Below are positions 1,694 through 59,350 of a stretch of DNA of 64,000 bases, piece after piece. Source of the stretch: Lentisphaeria bacterium (GTDB lineage Bacteria > Verrucomicrobiota > Lentisphaeria > Victivallales > Victivallaceae); contig JAFWBQ010000092.1 in the NCBI GenBank assembly GCA_017507125.1, positions 1-64,000 of the forward strand. Reading direction: 5' to 3'. Made by a program: the position numbers and the translations under genes. Below the pieces are notes generated by a model, which had not been told where the DNA came from, did no database searches, and worked only from the letters and a program-made list of their open reading frames with translations. How positions within the stretch are numbered: the first letter of the stretch is position 1; the number at the start of each line of letters is the position of its first letter.

Positions 1694-2818
1694 ATGAAAA
1701 AATCACTAATCATCACAGGCCTTTTCGCAACAGCTGTCATGCTGTGCGGAGCTGAAGCCAAAAACAAAAGCAAAGCTCCGGCTGCTCCGCAGATGCCGGT
1801 CCCCACAGTGCTGGCTGATACTGTTGTGGTCAGAACCAACAATGAGACCAAAAAGTACATTGGTATGCTCAAAGCTCATCTGGACGCAACGCTGGTTGCC
1901 AAAGTCTCCGGAACAATCGATGCCCAGCCTGTCGCTCACGGAAGTTTTGTCAAGAAAGGTGAGATGATCCTTCATATCGATGACATCGTTTATCAGGCTC
2001 AGGTCAAGTCAGCCAAAGCCATGATTGCTCAGACAGAGGCTGAACTTAAATTTACAAAGAAAAACTTTGAGCGCCAGAAGCAGCTCTACAAACAGAAAGC
2101 CACCTCGGAAACCACTTATGAAGAGGCGCAGAAAAACTATCTTACCACTCTTGCCCGGCTGAATAATTACAAAGCTCAACTCATTCTTGCTGAAGACAGT
2201 CTCCGCGATACCCGGGTGTGCGCCCCCTTTGACGGACGGATCGGTAAAGTGATCCTCAGCCCCGGAAACCACGTTTCCCCCGGCAAGGAGCTTGTGCGTC
2301 TGGTGACGATCTCCCCTGTGAATGTGGATTTTTCCATCAGTTCCCGTGACTTCCTTGAAATGTTCGGCAGCATGGATGCCCTGAAAGCCAAAGGCAAAGC
2401 CTATATTGAACTTGCCGACGGCTCCAAATATCCCGGCGACGGACGCATCATCTTCATGAGCAACAGTGTTGATACCAACACCGATACCATTGAGATCCGT
2501 GCCAGCTTTGACAACCCCAAAGGCAAATTGATCCCCGGCGGTCTGGTGACTGTCCGTCTGGGACTGCGTACTCCTCCCCGGATGCCTTCCGTTCCCGTCT
2601 CTGCCGTTCTGAACAGCAAACAGGGCTCTTTTGTCTATGTGATCGGCAAAGACAAAAGAGCCATCCGCCGCGCTGTTACTCCCGGTCCTGTGGTGGGCAA
2701 TTATCAGTTTATCGCCAAAGGCCTCAAGGCAGGTGAATCTGTTGTTTCCGGCGGAAGCAACAAAGTGTTCCCCGGTATGCCTGTGAATCCGGTCTTTGAG
2801 AAAAAGGCGGAAAGGTGA
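1694..2818 (+). CDS. RND efflux periplasmic adaptor (HlyD/AcrA-type)
   Basis: Membrane fusion protein of 374 aa that links an RND permease to an outer-membrane channel. The start at 1694 is chosen because AAGGAG ends 10 bases before it, and it gives an N-terminal signal sequence MKKSLIITGLFATAVMLCGA; an upstream in-frame ATG at 1646 lacks these. The order is signal peptide, lipoyl/barrel-sandwich half, a coiled-coil hairpin (about residues 95-165, rich in K/E/Q/A), the second lipoyl half (VCAPFDGRIGKV), then beta-barrel and membrane-proximal domains. It lies 9 bases before the permease. No TolC-type gene is present in this operon. Confidence 0.92.
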   Translation: MKKSLIITGLFATAVMLCGAEAKNKSKAPAAPQMPVPTVLADTVVVRTNNETKKYIGMLKAHLDATLVAKVSGTIDAQPVAHGSFVKKGEMILHIDDIVYQAQVKSAKAMIAQTEAELKFTKKNFERQKQLYKQKATSETTYEEAQKNYLTTLARLNNYKAQLILAEDSLRDTRVCAPFDGRIGKVILSPGNHVSPGKELVRLVTISPVNVDFSISSRDFLEMFGSMDALKAKGKAYIELADGSKYPGDGRIIFMSNSVDTNTDTIEIRASFDNPKGKLIPGGLVTVRLGLRTPPRMPSVPVSAVLNSKQGSFVYVIGKDKRAIRRAVTPGPVVGNYQFIAKGLKAGESVVSGGSNKVFPGMPVNPVFEKKAER

Positions 2819-2827
2819 TGGAGCAAG

Positions 2828-5800
2828 ATGATCTCCCAGGTATTTATTGATCGCCCCCGTCTGGCAATCGTCATCTCTGTGGTGACAGTGCTGCTGGGCG
2901 GACTCTGTCTTTTGAAGGCGCCTGTTGCGGAATATCCGGAAATCGCGCCTCCTTCACTGGTGGTTCTGGCGAACTACACCGGTGCCGGTGCTGAAGAAGT
3001 CGCCGACACCGTCGCAACTGTTATTGAAGAGCAGATGAACGGTTTGGAAGATCTGCTCTACTTTTCATCCACATCAAGCGATGCCGGACTTTATATTCTG
3101 AGCATTACTTTCAAATCCGGTACGGACACCGATATTGCATTGGTGAACGTGCAGAATGCTGTGAGCCGGGCAGAACCTCTCTTGCCGCAGATCGTCAAAG
3201 ACAACGGTGTGAAGTACTTCAAGCGCTCCAGCGATATTCTGGCGCTTTACAACTTTTCAACCGACGGCAGCGAGTTGAATCAGGTGCAGCTTTCCAACTA
3301 CATCCGCACCAACATCCGGGATCCCCTGGCGCGTGTTGACGGTGTCAGTGAAGTCAGCATCATGGGTGAGCGTAACTACTCCATGCGTATCTGGGTCGAT
3401 CCCGTCAAACTTTCTGCCCTCAATATCACCCCTGAAGATGTGGCAAATGCGGTCCGTTCACAGAACCAGCAGGCTGCTGCGGGTGCTGTGGGAACTGAGT
3501 TCAGCCATGACTCCATGCAGCTCAAAGTCAATACTCTTGGTCGTTTGAAGACGGTTGAAGAGTTCGGCAACATTGTTGTCCGCGCCGGAAACGCCGGAAG
3601 ACTTGTCAAACTCAAAGACATCGCCCGTATCGAGCTGGGTTCCGAGCAGTATTCAAACTCCAGTGCCTACAACGGCGAAGAGAGTGTTGCTCTCATGATT
3701 TACCGCAACGATGACTCCAACGCCATTGAGGTTGTGGACCGGGTCAATGCTCTTTTGAAAGATCTTTCCAAAACCTTCCCCAAGGGTATCAGCTACACCA
3801 TTGCCTACGACCCCACAAAGTATATCCGTATCTCTCTTGAAGAGATCGCCATGACTCTGCTCATGACTCTGATCCTTGTGGTGGTCATCACTTACATCTT
3901 CCTGCAGGATTGGCGTGCAACTCTGATTCCCACGATTACGATCCCTGTAAGTTTGATCGGTACATTCATCTTCCTGATCCCTCTTGGTTTTTCCATCAAC
4001 CTTCTGACCATGTTCGCATTGATCCTTGTGATCGGTTCACTTGTGGACGACGCCATTGTGGTGACTGAAAATACCATGAGTATCATGGAAAAAGAGGGGC
4101 TCGGTCCCAAGGAAGCTGCCTCCAAGAGTATGCAGCAGATCACAGGCGCAGTTATCGCCACGACTCTGGTGATCGTTGCCATTTATGCTCCTGTCGGTTT
4201 TTACGGAGGAATGGTGGGAACCATCTATGTGCAGTTCGCTGTGACCATGTGTATTGCACTGTGTCTCTCAACAGTCAATGCTCTGACCCTGAGTCCTGCT
4301 CTCTGCTCAATTCTGCTGCGTAAACCCAAACCGACCCGCAATCCTCTCTTCAAGGGATTCAACTTCTGTCTCAACAAGAGCTGCGGATGGTATCTGAAGG
4401 TGTCCGGATTCCTGATCCGTTACATCGTCATCACGATCATTCTTTTCGGAGGCGTTCTTGCTCTCAACTACTTCTTCTACAACCGTATCCCCGGTTCATT
4501 CATCCCCAACGAGGATAAAGGTGCTTTGATGGGCTCTGTGGAGCTGCCTCCCGGTGCCGCATTGACCCGTACCGGCGAGACCCAGAGCGAAGTGCTCCGG
4601 AAGGTCTCAAAGATCCCCGGCGTCAAGGATATCATTACCGTCAGCGGATTCAGTTTTACCGGCGGTACCGGTGAAAACGTGGGTATGGCGATCTTTGTCC
4701 TTGAGGACTGGGATAAACGTACGACCAAAGAAACTGAAGCTGATGAGATCATGAAAAAGATCCAGGGGCAGATGGCAACGATCCCCACCGGCAGTGTGCA
4801 GGTCTTCCAGCCCCCGGCGATCATGGGACTGGGTGTTACCGGCGGTATCAGCTTCATGCTCCAGTGTACCGGTAAACAGACGCCTCAGGATCTTGAAGTT
4901 GCGATCCGCAACATTGTGGCAGACATCCGTTCTTTCCCCGGAGTCCGGGTGGCTTTCTGCAGCTATGACGCTTCAACGCCTCAGCTTTTCGTTGATATTG
5001 ACCGCGATAAAGCTGAAGCCATGGGGGTTCCCGTCAGCCGTATCTTCTCTGTCCTTCAGGGTAATATCGCCTCCTCTTATCTGAATGACTTCAACTTGCA
5101 GGGATACTCCTTCAAGGTGAAACTTCAGGCCGAGGGCAGAGATCGTGAAACCGTCAATACGCTTAATGCTCTGATGGTCAAAAACAACGAGGGCAAAATG
5201 GTGCCTTTGAGCTCTTTCGCCACTTTGCGTTACAATGTGGGCCCCCGCCTTGTGACCCGTTTCAATCAGTATATGTCGGCTCAGGTCAATGTGATCCTGG
5301 TGCCCGGAACACCTTCATCCTCCGTCATGGGACTGGTTGAAAAGGCTGTTTCTGAGAAACTCGGCCGTGATTACTCTGTTGAGTGGATCGATATGGCGCG
5401 TCAGGAACGGGATAATGAAGGACGTATTCTTCTTCTGCTGCTTTTCGCAACGGTTTTCGGATACCTCTTCCTGGTCGGTCAGTACGAGAGCTGGACTATT
5501 CCGCTGCCTGTTATGCTGACCATCTCCTTTGCAACTCTGGGCGGTCTGATGGGACTCAAATACATTGTTCCCATCGGGAAGTTCTTCGGTATCGAGTACA
5601 TGAATATGGACTTGAGTATTTACGCTCAGTTGGGATTGGTGATGCTGATCGGTCTTTCAAGCAAAAACGCCATTCTTATGGTTGAGTTTTCCAAGCAGGC
5701 GCGTGAAGAGGGACTTTCCATCAAAGATGCCGCTCAGGAAGGCTTCAAACAGCGTTACCGCGCTGTGTTGATGACGGCGTGGAGTTTCGTGATCGGTGTG

Positions 5801-6491: not shown

Positions 6492-8339
6492 ATGAAAAAA
6501 CTCAATCCATTTGCCGGTCTTCGCGCCGGATGGTTGGACCTGTCCGGAGCTGTTTCTGAAATCAGCGCAGATGGACTGAGCCGCTCTCTTGCATGGGTTC
6601 TGAATGATGACGGAACTTTTGGTGCTGATGATGAAACGGCACTTTTTACCCTGGCTGTTGAAAAACTTTCCTTCGGAGCTCGTATCAGATGCACCGCAGA
6701 GTGGAAGAAAAATGTGCCGGAGCACCTCATCTTTACCCTTGTGACTTTCCCTGCCTTTCCGGCTGACCACGCCTTCTTTTGCGGTGAACGCATGGGAAAG
6801 GCCCAAACTGCCGTGCTGCCTGTGAAAAAGAGCCGGGATTTTCAGGGACGCCATTATGCCGCTCTGACCCGGGGAAAAGAGACACTCCTTATGACATCCC
6901 CCCTCAATCAGAAGTTTGACAATTTTTTCCGGGGAAAAAGCGTCGGTGGATTGATGTTGAAATGGCGCTGTGATTTTGAGTTTCATCATAATGATCTGAG
7001 TGGAAAAACAGAGTTTGATCCAGTGACCATTGAATGCGGCAACGGCATCCGGATGCTGGAGCAGTATGGTGATGACAATTGTGAAGTCAAAAAAGATTTT
7101 TCCAAACAGCCGGAGTGCGGCTGGAACTCCTGGGATTACTACCGGTGGACCATCTCTGAAGAAGAGGTGCTGCAAAACGCCGCCTTTATCGCCGCTGATC
7201 CGGTGCTGAAACACTATGTCAAACGTATTATTGTGGATGACGGTTGGCAGTATTGTTACGGCGAATGGGATGCCAATTCACTTTTCCCGGGCGGAATGAA
7301 ATTTCTGGCCGATGAACTGCACAAAATGGGGTTCAAACCGGGGCTCTGGTTCGCTCCCGCCATCGTTGAACCTCACTGCCGGATCGCTCAATGGGATTAT
7401 GACATGCTTGCATGTTCCGAGGGCGGACAGCCCTGTCTTGCCTATCACTGTATGGAGCGTCACGGATTTGTCCTTGACCCGACACTCCCCAAAACGCAAA
7501 AGCATCTGGAACAGCTCTTTGACCGTTATGCCGGAATGGGATACGAATACTTCAAACTGGACTTTCTTGGCGCTGTGATGTCAGCAAAACGTTTTGCTGA
7601 CCGTACTGTACCCCGCTGCCAGGTGCTGAGAAAATTGATGGAGGCTGTCTGCAAAGGTGTTGCGGGCAGGGCGGAAATTCTGGGGTGTAACTACCATTTT
7701 TACAACGGCAACAGCTTTGTTGATTCGGTGCGCGTAGGGGGGGATATCCACTCCCACTGGAGAAGTATCAAAGCCAACACCGTTTCGGTTGCGGGAATGT
7801 TCTGGGCTAATAAAAAATTGTGGATCAATGATCCGGACTTTTCTCTCTGCCGCGGTCTTGAAACTTCAAACGATCCTGATCTTCAGCGCCTGAAACCCTG
7901 TCTGGTTTCCTGTGCTCCCCATGATGAATACAATGAGGGATTGGAGTTCAATCTTGCCTCAACGTGCCTTGAAGAGCAGAAAGTTCTGCTCTCTCTTGAT
8001 CTTATGGCGGGCGGTGCCGTCAACTTGTCGGATAAAATGTCTCTGCTCAATGAAAAAGGAATTGAGCTTGCCCGTAAGGTCGTTGCCGCTGAGTCCGGCT
8101 CTGCCGGCAGACCCCTTGATATTTTTGAAAGAGAATTGCCGGTTTACTGGCATCAGTCCCTGAAAAAAGGGGGCAGGTTCCTGGTTGTCAACTGGGAAGA
8201 TGTGCCTCAGGAAATAAGGGTTGATTGGAGTATTGCCGGAAATCCCGTTGAAGTAAAGGATTTCTGGAACGGAAAAATTGAAAAATGTGTCAGTTCTGTG
8301 ATGCTTGATCCTCACAGCTGCAAACTTTGGGAGTATTGA
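6492..8339 (+). CDS. Alpha-galactosidase-like glycoside hydrolase (GH36 / clan GH-D)
   Basis: A 615-aa cytoplasmic-looking enzyme with no signal peptide. A beta-sandwich N-terminal part is followed by a (beta/alpha)8 barrel with WNSWDYY (about residue 210) and IIVDDGWQ (about 245). KLDF carries the expected nucleophile D357, and VGGD the likely acid/base D418. A small C-terminal beta domain closes the chain. The clan hydrolyses alpha-1,6-galactosides; raffinose-synthase-like activity is an alternative. The start at 6492 follows a weak ribosome site (CGGAGA) and the promoter 30 bases upstream. The metallo-hydrolase gene follows after 4 bases and is probably cotranscribed. Confidence 0.85.
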   Translation: MKKLNPFAGLRAGWLDLSGAVSEISADGLSRSLAWVLNDDGTFGADDETALFTLAVEKLSFGARIRCTAEWKKNVPEHLIFTLVTFPAFPADHAFFCGERMGKAQTAVLPVKKSRDFQGRHYAALTRGKETLLMTSPLNQKFDNFFRGKSVGGLMLKWRCDFEFHHNDLSGKTEFDPVTIECGNGIRMLEQYGDDNCEVKKDFSKQPECGWNSWDYYRWTISEEEVLQNAAFIAADPVLKHYVKRIIVDDGWQYCYGEWDANSLFPGGMKFLADELHKMGFKPGLWFAPAIVEPHCRIAQWDYDMLACSEGGQPCLAYHCMERHGFVLDPTLPKTQKHLEQLFDRYAGMGYEYFKLDFLGAVMSAKRFADRTVPRCQVLRKLMEAVCKGVAGRAEILGCNYHFYNGNSFVDSVRVGGDIHSHWRSIKANTVSVAGMFWANKKLWINDPDFSLCRGLETSNDPDLQRLKPCLVSCAPHDEYNEGLEFNLASTCLEEQKVLLSLDLMAGGAVNLSDKMSLLNEKGIELARKVVAAESGSAGRPLDIFERELPVYWHQSLKKGGRFLVVNWEDVPQEIRVDWSIAGNPVEVKDFWNGKIEKCVSSVMLDPHSCKLWEY

Positions 8340-8343
8340 AAAA

Positions 8344-9159
8344 ATGACAAAATTACTTATTTGCGGCAGCGCTGCCGCTGAAGCTGTTCCCGGTGTTTTC
8401 TGTACCTGTCCTCTCTGCCTCAAAGCCCTTGAAGAGGGCGGCAAAGATATCCGCAGCCGTACCGCGTATCAATTGGGAGAGTCCATCCGGATCGATCTTG
8501 GCCCGGATCTTTTTTATCACATGGTGAAATTCGGCTTGCGTCTGGATAAACTCCGGGAGCTTGTCATCACCCATAATCACAGAGATCACTTTTATCCCGA
8601 TGAACTTGCCAACCGGAGACAGGGAATGTCCAAAGTTCCGGAGGGGGCCGTGTTGCGGGTCATCGGTTCCCCGATCGTGGTGGAACAGGTGAAAAACACC
8701 ACAGATCCGGAAAAAAGCCTTCTCAAGTTTGAGAGTGTCGAACACGGTTCAAAAGTGATGCTCCACGGCGATGTTGAGCTGACTGCATTTCAGGCCAATC
8801 ACGGAGCACCGGAATCACTCTTTTACGCTTTCCGGACAAAAGAGTACTCTCTGCTCATCGCCAACGATACCGGATGGTTCCCGGATCAAAGCTGGGATCT
8901 GCTGAAAAACTTTGCCTTTGACGCAGTGATCCTTGACTGCTGTTATATGCACTGGGATCAGCGGCACGGTCACATGGGGGGCGACAGCTTTATTGCCTGT
9001 CTTGAGGAACTTCGCAAACAGGGATCTCTCAAAGAAAATGCACTCCTTGTTGCCAACCACTTCTCTCACAATCCGAACCTGAGCCACGAGGAACTTTGCA
9101 GCTGGCTGACCCCGCGCGGGATCGAAGTCGGTTTTGACGGTATGGAAATTGAACTGTAA
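8344..9159 (+). CDS. Metallo-beta-lactamase fold hydrolase (PhnP-like)
   Basis: A 271-aa protein with the MBL metal motif THNHRDH (about residues 77-83), later conserved metal-site segments (NHGAPES, ANDTGW) and a C-terminal ANHFSHN. The N-terminus carries C20-x-C22-x2-C25 (CTCPLC), the structural zinc motif seen in PhnP, a phosphodiesterase of the phosphonate pathway. No other phosphonate genes are nearby, so the substrate is open. The start ATG at 8344 directly follows the alpha-galactosidase stop; an upstream in-frame ATG lies inside that gene. Confidence 0.82.
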   Translation: MTKLLICGSAAAEAVPGVFCTCPLCLKALEEGGKDIRSRTAYQLGESIRIDLGPDLFYHMVKFGLRLDKLRELVITHNHRDHFYPDELANRRQGMSKVPEGAVLRVIGSPIVVEQVKNTTDPEKSLLKFESVEHGSKVMLHGDVELTAFQANHGAPESLFYAFRTKEYSLLIANDTGWFPDQSWDLLKNFAFDAVILDCCYMHWDQRHGHMGGDSFIACLEELRKQGSLKENALLVANHFSHNPNLSHEELCSWLTPRGIEVGFDGMEIEL

Positions 9160-57033: not shown

Positions 57034-57139
57034 ACTTTGTTTTCCTGTTCCCGGTGAAGTGTTTTCTCCGGGTTTTTTTATGTCTGTCGACAGGGAATAT
57101 TGAAACATCTGCTGATGAAAAAACAACGCTGGAGGACGA

Positions 57140-59350
57140 ATGGAACTTGAAAAACTTCTTGACATTCTGGCAAAAGATAACGTTTCAGATATTATCCTTG
57201 CTGCGGGAGCCCGCCCCAGGGTCCGGAGCAATGGAGAGTTCCTTGAAAAACAGGATTTGGAAACTGTTGCTGCTGCTGACATAGATGCATTCCGGCTGCA
57301 GATCGCCGGGGAAAAGAGAGAAGTCCAGTATCATAAAAACGAGGGCCTGGACCTTTCGATCCCTCTTCCCGGCAACCGCCGCTGCCGAATCAATTTTTTT
57401 ACGACGATCCACGGTCCCGGAATGGCGGTGCGTCCTTTGAGGGACGGCTCCCTGGTGACTGTTGAAAATCAGGGACTGCCTGAGATCCTTAAAAAGTTTG
57501 CTTCTGACGCACGGGGATTGCTCCTTGTTACCGGTGCCACGGGGAGCGGCAAGACAACGACTTTGAGTGCCATGGTGAATTTTATCAACAGCAATTTCCC
57601 CAAACACGTTTTGATGATCGAGGATCCTGTTGAATATCTGCATAAAAGCAAAAGATCCATGATTACTCAGCGGGAAGTGGTTAGCGGTGAGGCTGGGGGA
57701 TTTCAAAGAGCTCTTAAATTTGCACTCCGCGAAAATCCGGATGTCATCGTGATCGGGGAAATACGTGATCCGGAGACCATGGAAACGGCATTGAATGCCG
57801 CTTTGACCGGACATCTTGTCATTGCATCACTTCATACTGCAGATGCACTGCAGAGTATTGAACGGATTCTTGGTCTTTATCCTGAGTCTTTGCGTCAGCA
57901 GGCCGCTCAGGATCTTTCTCTTGCCATCAATGCTGTTGTTTCCCAGCGGCTTCTGCCACGGGCTGACGGCAGTGGACTCCTGGCTGTTACCGAGATACTT
58001 TCCGGAACGCCTACTGTGAAAAAGCAGATTGCCGAAAGAGATCTTGAAGCTCTTGATATGACTTTGCATGCCGGCAGAAGCGATGGAATGGAAACCTTTA
58101 ACAGGTCGCTGCTCAGAAGATATCAGAAAGGGGAACTGACTTTTGAAACTGCCATCGGAGCTTCCTCAAACCCCGAGGAGTTCAAACTCCTTATAAGAGG
58201 TATGGAAAACGGCTCTGCCACTCTCATACCCTGTTATGGAACCGGTGATGAAACAGAAAACATTTCTGAACAGATAGATATGCGTTCTTTGCTGCGTTCT
58301 GCCATCAGAAATGATGCCAGCGATTTGATTCTGACAGCAGGCGTGCCCCCTCTGGTAAAAATTTCAGGATCACTCAGAAAACTTGATCTCCCGTCCCTTA
58401 TGCCCACAGATATAGAGAGGCTGATTTTCAGCATTATCACCCGCCGCCAGCGTGTGATCCTTGAAGAAAAAAAAGAACTTGATTTTGCGTTGTCTGTCCG
58501 TCTGCCGCAAATTTGTGCCGATGAAGATGAGAGTGTATGCCGTTTCAGGATCAACGCTTTTTATCAACGCGGGGCATTGGGGGCAGCTGCCAGGGTGATC
58601 AACAGCCGTATTCCGGAACCCTCAAAATTAGGGCTCCCGCCGGTACTTTCAGACTTAGTCAGAAAAAGTCAGGGGCTTTTCCTTGTGACAGGGCCCACCG
58701 GCAGCGGAAAATCTACGACTCTTGCCAGTTTGATTCGGAAAATCAATCAGGAAAGGGCGTGCCACATCATAACTATTGAGGACCCTGTTGAATATGTCTA
58801 TGAAAATGATCGGGCCGCTATCGAACAGCGGGAAGTGCACGCCGACACTATGAGTTTTTCTGCAGCATTGCGTTCTGCTATGCGGCAGGCACCTGATGTG
58901 ATATTGCTGGGGGAGATGCGTGATATTGAGACGATCAGTGCAGCATTGACTGCGGCGGAAACAGGACATCTTGTTCTTGCCACACTGCACACAAACAGTG
59001 CCGCCCAGACAGTTGACCGGATCGTGGACTCCTTCCCCGCCGGACAGCAGAATCAGATCCGTCAACAGCTGGCAGCAACGGTGCTGGCTGTTGTCTCGCA
59101 GCGGCTGCTTCCCCGGAAAGATGGTACGGGAATGGTTGCCGCCTTTGAAGTTATGACCGGAACGCCCCCCGTCAGGGCGCTGATCCGGGAAAATAAAACC
59201 CATTTGCTGCAGTCCACTCTTGAAACCAGTTTCAAGGATGGCATGCAGACCATGGAAAAATCTCTGGAGGAACTTTACGCTGACGGACTCATCTCAGAAG
59301 AAGAGTCCAAACGTCTGGCGGCAGACTGCTCAAAAGTCAAAGAGTTTTGA
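57140..59350 (+). CDS. Tandem-fused PilT-type ATPase (two complete motor units)
   Basis: A 736-aa protein made of two successive PilT-like units, each with a PAS-like N-terminal domain and a RecA-like ATPase core. Unit 1: DNVSDIILAAG (about residue 13), Walker A GATGSGKT (132-139), VIVIGEIRDPET, HLVIASLHTAD. Unit 2: NDASDLILTAG (about 393), Walker A GPTGSGKS (518-525), VILLGEMRDIET, HLVLATLHTNS. PilT drives pilus retraction as a hexamer of single units of about 350 aa. Both copies look intact. AGGACG lies 5 bases before the ATG. No pilus structural genes are adjacent; a pseudopilin is at 22835. Confidence 0.93.
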   Translation: MELEKLLDILAKDNVSDIILAAGARPRVRSNGEFLEKQDLETVAAADIDAFRLQIAGEKREVQYHKNEGLDLSIPLPGNRRCRINFFTTIHGPGMAVRPLRDGSLVTVENQGLPEILKKFASDARGLLLVTGATGSGKTTTLSAMVNFINSNFPKHVLMIEDPVEYLHKSKRSMITQREVVSGEAGGFQRALKFALRENPDVIVIGEIRDPETMETALNAALTGHLVIASLHTADALQSIERILGLYPESLRQQAAQDLSLAINAVVSQRLLPRADGSGLLAVTEILSGTPTVKKQIAERDLEALDMTLHAGRSDGMETFNRSLLRRYQKGELTFETAIGASSNPEEFKLLIRGMENGSATLIPCYGTGDETENISEQIDMRSLLRSAIRNDASDLILTAGVPPLVKISGSLRKLDLPSLMPTDIERLIFSIITRRQRVILEEKKELDFALSVRLPQICADEDESVCRFRINAFYQRGALGAAARVINSRIPEPSKLGLPPVLSDLVRKSQGLFLVTGPTGSGKSTTLASLIRKINQERACHIITIEDPVEYVYENDRAAIEQREVHADTMSFSAALRSAMRQAPDVILLGEMRDIETISAALTAAETGHLVLATLHTNSAAQTVDRIVDSFPAGQQNQIRQQLAATVLAVVSQRLLPRKDGTGMVAAFEVMTGTPPVRALIRENKTHLLQSTLETSFKDGMQTMEKSLEELYADGLISEEESKRLAADCSKVKEF

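Follow-up and report, generated by a model that had tools for sequence, protein, structure and literature searches.

A probable PilU-PilT fusion among the type IV pilus retraction ATPases of Lentisphaeria

Layout of the tandem ATPase

The window, a 64,000-nucleotide stretch of contig JAFWBQ010000092.1 from a Lentisphaeria bacterium, carries a forward-strand open reading frame (ORF) of 736 codons (57140-59350) with an ATG start and no internal stops. Its product matches TIGR01420, the model covering PilT and PilU, in two stretches (791.7 bits), and each half scored alone exceeds the curated cut-off of 319.1 bits (N-half, 352.4 bits; C-half, 446.4 bits). The initial annotation, which described two PilT-family units in one uninterrupted frame with Walker A motifs at residues 132-139 and 518-525, 386 residues apart, is thus borne out (Table 1). 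Both halves contain Walker A, the Asp box, an atypical Walker B with its glutamate, the His box and arginine fingers; loss of a catalytic residue, which that annotation had raised against its own reading, was seen in neither half of this protein.

In the AlphaFold model, the halves are confidently predicted as two PilT folds (mean pLDDT 89.3), the pTM is 0.55, and residues 357-376 fall below a pLDDT of 50; the disordered linker and the low pTM together argue against a fixed packing between the halves within one chain. The linker spans about 20 residues here and 14-22 among 101 relatives. The best structure matches of the tandem model are chains of 6OJX (Geobacter PilT) and 6OKV, with 47-48% identity and a TM-score of 0.93 by target length.

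Table 1. Features of the tandem retraction ATPase gene, in positions of the window
Feature	Coordinates	Strand	Basis
PilU-like unit, linker and PilT-like unit in a single 736-aa ORF	57140..59350	+	TIGR01420 in two stretches
Strong GGAGG ribosome-binding site, 4 bases 5' of ATG	57131..57135	+	direct sequence reading
N-half, PilU-like retraction ATPase unit, residues 1-356	57140..58207	+	TIGR01420, profiles, tree
Linker, residues 357-376, predicted disordered	58208..58267	+	pLDDT <50
C-half, PilT-like retraction ATPase unit, residues 377-736	58268..59347	+	TIGR01420, profiles
N-half Walker A GATGSGKT (132-139)	57533..57556	+	Lys in 101/101 relatives
N-half Asp box LMIEDPVEYL (158-167)	57611..57640	+	motif inspection
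N-half Walker B region IVIGEIRD (203-210)	57746..57769	+	motif inspection
N-half L222, at the pore-glutamate position of PilT and PilU	57803..57805	+	Glu in 0/101 N-halves
N-half His box GHLVIASLHT (224-233)	57809..57838	+	motif inspection and relatives
N-half TPTVKKQIAE (290-299), degenerate AIRNLIRE segment	58007..58036	+	Arg not among tabulated N-half residue types
C-half N-domain motif CRFRINAFYQRG (467-478)	58538..58573	+	its QRG missing from N-half
C-half Walker A GPTGSGKS (518-525)	58691..58714	+	motif inspection
C-half Asp box ITIEDPVEYV (544-553)	58769..58798	+	invariant, 101 relatives
C-half Walker B region VILLGEMRD (587-595)	58898..58924	+	E592 invariant
C-half His box GHLVLATLHT (609-618)	58964..58993	+	H617 invariant
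C-half TPPVRALIRE (675-684), AIRNLIRE-type segment	59162..59191	+	R683 in 101/101 C-halves

Distribution of the fused proteins

An assembly or sequencing join of two neighbouring genes, the other objection foreseen at the outset, is ruled out, since the same two-unit ORF recurs at 41-75% identity in many genomes and in varied gene contexts, and a second two-unit protein, 47% identical to the first, is encoded on contig C126 of the same genome. Two-unit proteins were detected in 41 of 60 sampled relatives. A phylum-wide sample listed 90 of 388 genomes, one of which (G292) proved to hold adjacent unfused genes, leaving about 89/388, all belonging to the class of the window. A search across bacteria for two PilT domains in one protein, as the initial annotation had suggested, thus finds them recurrent in this class; none was present in one ORF among 80 loci from other phyla, nor in whole genomes of four other phyla (0/100, 0/349, 0/198 and 0/199; 0/846 in all), where few candidates were scored per genome, so that these negatives limit rather than exclude a wider occurrence and a divergent fusion could be missed in these larger samples. 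By sequence comparison, the fusion is old and, within the samples, restricted to one bacterial class. Within the literature searched, no earlier report of a fused PilU-PilT was found.

The two genes of G292, which belongs to another class of the phylum, are PilT-family genes lying 18 bases apart (L180:6281-7351 and 7370-8461, plus strand). They possibly resemble the arrangement before fusion, a candidacy that was set aside on account of the upstream gene, which is long-branched, slightly nearer PilT and unreliably placed in the tree.

Genomic context

The fused gene is a solitary one, flanked on one side by an RND efflux pair and on the other by a sugar-kinase/alcohol-dehydrogenase pair, both on the opposite strand, and no pilus genes were found beside it. 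Across the class, conserved neighbours of the fused gene were found only among close relatives. Elsewhere in the genome, a PilB-like ATPase scores 667 bits, just below its cut-off of 675.65, and a PilM-like match also falls below the cut-off. Co-occurrence of PilM was discarded as a clue, since PilM-like matches occur in relatives whether or not these carry the fusion.

The same genome (G000) also carries, on contig C17, an ordinary pair of separate, adjacent PilT-like genes (L003:1429-2550 and 2571-3941, minus strand), which forms clades with pairs of Akkermansia, Verrucomicrobiaceae and one Lentisphaerae genome. In the tree both genes group towards PilT, and the pair is therefore distinct from PilT-PilU. 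It had been considered as a second fusion, but its "open frame" of 820-1028 aa counts through stops, and direct translation yields two genes.

The isolation of the fused gene, the uninformative PilM signal and the additional PilT-like pair could be taken to mean that the fusion serves another type IV filament machine (type II secretion or a pseudopilus), or is a general regulator of it, rather than acting in type IVa retraction. This reading appears very unlikely, because the C-half, which matches the PilT and PilU profiles, retains both the pore glutamate and an arginine of AIRNLIRE type, and a PilB-like ATPase is present, if marginally below threshold.

Residues retained and lost in each half

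The AIRNLIRE segment has a generally recognized role in PilT. Residues were surveyed across 101 two-unit proteins, with pore and catalytic roles taken from published work (PMC5424180). The C-halves keep all catalytic residues, with the pore glutamate in 100/101 and the AIRNLIRE arginine in 101/101. In the N-halves, the Walker A lysine is universal (101/101) and the remaining catalytic residues are kept in 92-100%, whereas the pore-glutamate position is occupied by L in 76, M in 21, Q in 2, I in 1 and R in 1. Glutamate, which known PilU retains within AETGH, was sought there and found in none. The AIRNLIRE arginine is likewise gone (A298 in the window protein; arginine is absent from the tabulated N-half residue types), and QRG, missing from the N-half of the window protein, is mostly lost among N-halves. 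The C-half accordingly shows the features of the PilT subfamily, being nearer PilT than PilU and possessing both its AIRNLIRE-type arginine and its pore glutamate, whereas the N-half shows none of these (A298, L222 and a score nearer PilU). With its catalytic residues kept and these positions changed, the N-half has the appearance of a functional ATPase from which the residues that normally contact the pilus have gone. The description of two complete motors hence holds as far as catalysis goes; it fails for coupling to the pilus, since the N-half has lost the pore glutamate as well as the QRG and AIRNLIRE positions.

One C-half of the 101 (L179:6740-8935, plus strand; G049) has an altered T221 equivalent (L) with an intact His box; a sequencing error and a real variant are both possible.

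Origin of the two halves

The matched profiles drew on a single set of 26 genomes, with 26 sequences for PilT and 26 for PilU; the RNLIR motif occurs in 25/26 PilT and 0/26 PilU. The N-half of the window protein scores 308.3 bits against the PilU profile and 283.2 against that of PilT, while the C-half scores 405.6 bits against PilT and 360.4 against PilU. The same preference extends across the set of halves, with 101/105 N-halves favouring PilU (mean +28.5 bits) and 105/105 C-halves favouring PilT (mean -29.8). In maximum-likelihood trees, the N-halves form one clade (100/100), as do the C-halves, and the N-halves group with PilU in three trees (98/86, 99/87 and, in the best-sampled, 100/99), both N-halves and PilU lying on long branches. 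Furthermore, five residues of the window protein (F19, D258, E307, F320 and L350) are common to N-halves and PilU and absent from PilT and C-halves; in the same comparison with PilT and PilU, no residues common to N- and C-halves alone were found.

A different history, in which a single PilT gene underwent internal tandem duplication and its N-copy drifted towards PilU-like features, would accord with the membership of both halves in one family and with their long stems. The corresponding N+C clade was rejected by the AU test in the cleanest sample (p=0.0004), but not in a second sample, where the result was borderline (p=0.051), nor in a third, which contained a long stray branch (p=0.123). 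Against duplication also stand the proximity of nearly all N-halves to PilU and the contrast between the five residues shared with PilU and the lack of any unique to both halves, and this origin appears quite improbable. Profiles, trees with the AU test, and diagnostic residues together argue for a PilU-PilT fusion, and on these comparisons the halves are of different origins, PilU for the N-half and PilT for the C-half. The proposed comparison of each half with the two subfamilies by phylogeny therefore supports the earlier notion of a built-in PilT-PilU pair, and the age of the fusion and the separate origins of its halves agree with the view that no recent tandem duplication was involved.

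Paralogues with a decayed N-half

In seven paralogues (L002 and L149-L154), the N-half has lost its counterparts of H230, T221 and D161 in 7/7 and of R195 in 6/7, whereas the C-half keeps all four in 7/7. The His-box histidine and the Asp-box aspartate are gone from these N-halves, and the Walker A lysine is kept; they likely form a pseudo-ATPase ring, judging from the residues involved. Loss of the hydrolysis residues with retention of the ATP-binding lysine suggests that the PilU ring of this subfamily would probably be structural or regulatory.

The fused paralogue on C126 is preceded by a Ser/Thr kinase-PilB fusion and a small membrane protein, a gene order found in four genomes overall (three others), two of the four being cut by a contig end. 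The kinase-PilB ORFs 5' of the paralogous fusion (L147:10315-14154, minus strand, G000:C126, 1280 aa; L152:409-3969, plus strand, 1187 aa) combine zinc-ribbon-like cysteines, a Ser/Thr kinase (Pfam, 158 bits, HRD intact), a transmembrane segment and a PilB/GspE ATPase (337 bits), an architecture that suggests an extension motor under phosphorylation control. Immediately 3' of another fused PilU-PilT lies a gene of 1062 aa with ankyrin repeats and a degenerate GspE-like ATPase with Walker A GEPGNGRR (L190:7156-10341, plus strand; G183:C80).

Assembly of the fused motor

The residues lost from the paralogues bear on how the units pack. T221-H230 is an inter-chain contact and R195-D161 an interface contact (PMC6858323), the two domains of the latter belonging to different chains by our own reading of the packing-unit definition. 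Their joint loss in the N-half and joint retention in the C-half fit a packing of N-halves with N-halves and C-halves with C-halves: in homotypic rings one ring may decay as a whole, whereas in an alternating ring each intact C-half site of the paralogues would meet a damaged N-half. The argument presupposes a role of T221 and R195 in hydrolysis and draws on perhaps two lineages, and with so few independent loss events it lends homotypic rings moderate confidence.

Published work points in the same direction. PilT and PilU form separate, independent homohexamers (PMC6821130), PilU density has been located directly beneath PilT, and modelling sets the C-terminal domain of PilU against N-domains from two PilT subunits, where a K36 (PilT)-D366 (PilU) salt bridge has been put to the test (PMC13142100). 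PilU ends in 30 disordered residues that may hold PilT, and a back-to-back model of the two rings has also been reported (PMC12607626), so that published ring orientations disagree. D366 is close to the PilU C-terminus; matched approximately by length, its equivalent here would be in the linker or next to it, and fusion would then make an existing contact permanent.

The initial annotation had proposed that three chains close into a single ring of six units, its two non-identical motors, here the PilU-like and the PilT-like unit, alternating; C3 symmetry would then be fixed. Such a ring would be compatible with the window-type proteins, which keep all interface residues in both halves, with a linker long enough to permit the packing, and with the C3 open-closed alternation observed in both PilT and PilU (PMC6858323; PMC12607626). 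However, the PilT and PilU known so far keep to separate rings (PMC6821130), the C-half sites of the seven paralogues would face S/N in place of T221 and mostly S/N/H in place of R195, AlphaFold did not place the two halves as fixed neighbours, and C2 is favoured as the working state by the authors of PMC6858323. The three-chain ring is consequently unlikely, and six-chain stacking is favoured by the N-half-only contact losses of the paralogues and the published homohexamers, with PilU beneath PilT. If the three-chain ring were true, it would force C3 symmetry and put the C2-versus-C3 question to the test for the whole motor family.

The favoured interpretation, to which we give somewhat better than even credence, is that two type IV pilus retraction ATPases have fused naturally in the order PilU-linker-PilT, and that six such chains would build two stacked homotypic rings. 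The PilT ring, carrying the pore glutamate and the AIRNLIRE arginine, would engage the PilC platform, while the tethered PilU ring may add ATP-driven force or control the PilT ring. Fusion would lock PilU:PilT at 1:1 and set the end of PilU beside the start of PilT, as has been proposed for the unfused proteins of Vibrio; the PilU-then-PilT order agrees with that contact. A fuller account, that of a covalent double-ring motor of 1:1 composition whose PilU ring hydrolyses ATP but has given up contact with the platform protein, with the paralogue ring serving as an inactive nucleotide-binding regulator beside the kinase-PilB fusion, is evenly balanced between acceptance and doubt.

Comparison with known systems

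The fused PilU-PilT represents a variant of a known motor family, the partners of which are separate proteins in other bacteria. ClpB and p97 are AAA+ proteins with two ATPase units per chain, in which six chains form two stacked rings, one of them sometimes weakened; the resemblance is a functional analogy, since the fusion belongs to the PilT/VirB11 family and is unrelated in origin, and for the fusion alone stacking is something we infer. The N-half is like PilU (Vibrio cholerae and Pseudomonas aeruginosa; PDB 9n32; PilT-dependent) in profile, tree and five diagnostic residues, with complete ATPase motifs and an AIRNLIRE segment degenerate as in PilU. Unlike PilU, it is joined covalently at its C-terminus to PilT, has L or M in place of the pore glutamate, and bears a linker instead of a free C-terminal tail. 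The C-half has all the motifs of PilT (Geobacter, PDB 6OJX; Aquifex, 2GSZ), the pore glutamate and AIRNLIRE arginine among them, but differs in having another motor fused ahead of its N-terminus. In Pseudomonadota, the same two partners are encoded by a pair of genes in the order pilT-pilU, whereas here a single gene carries them in the reverse order, PilU-PilT. The cooperation of PilT and PilU, including their ratio and relative orientation, continues to be debated (PMC12607626, PMC13142100); with both partners fixed in one chain, ring number, orientation and each ATPase site become testable on a single protein.
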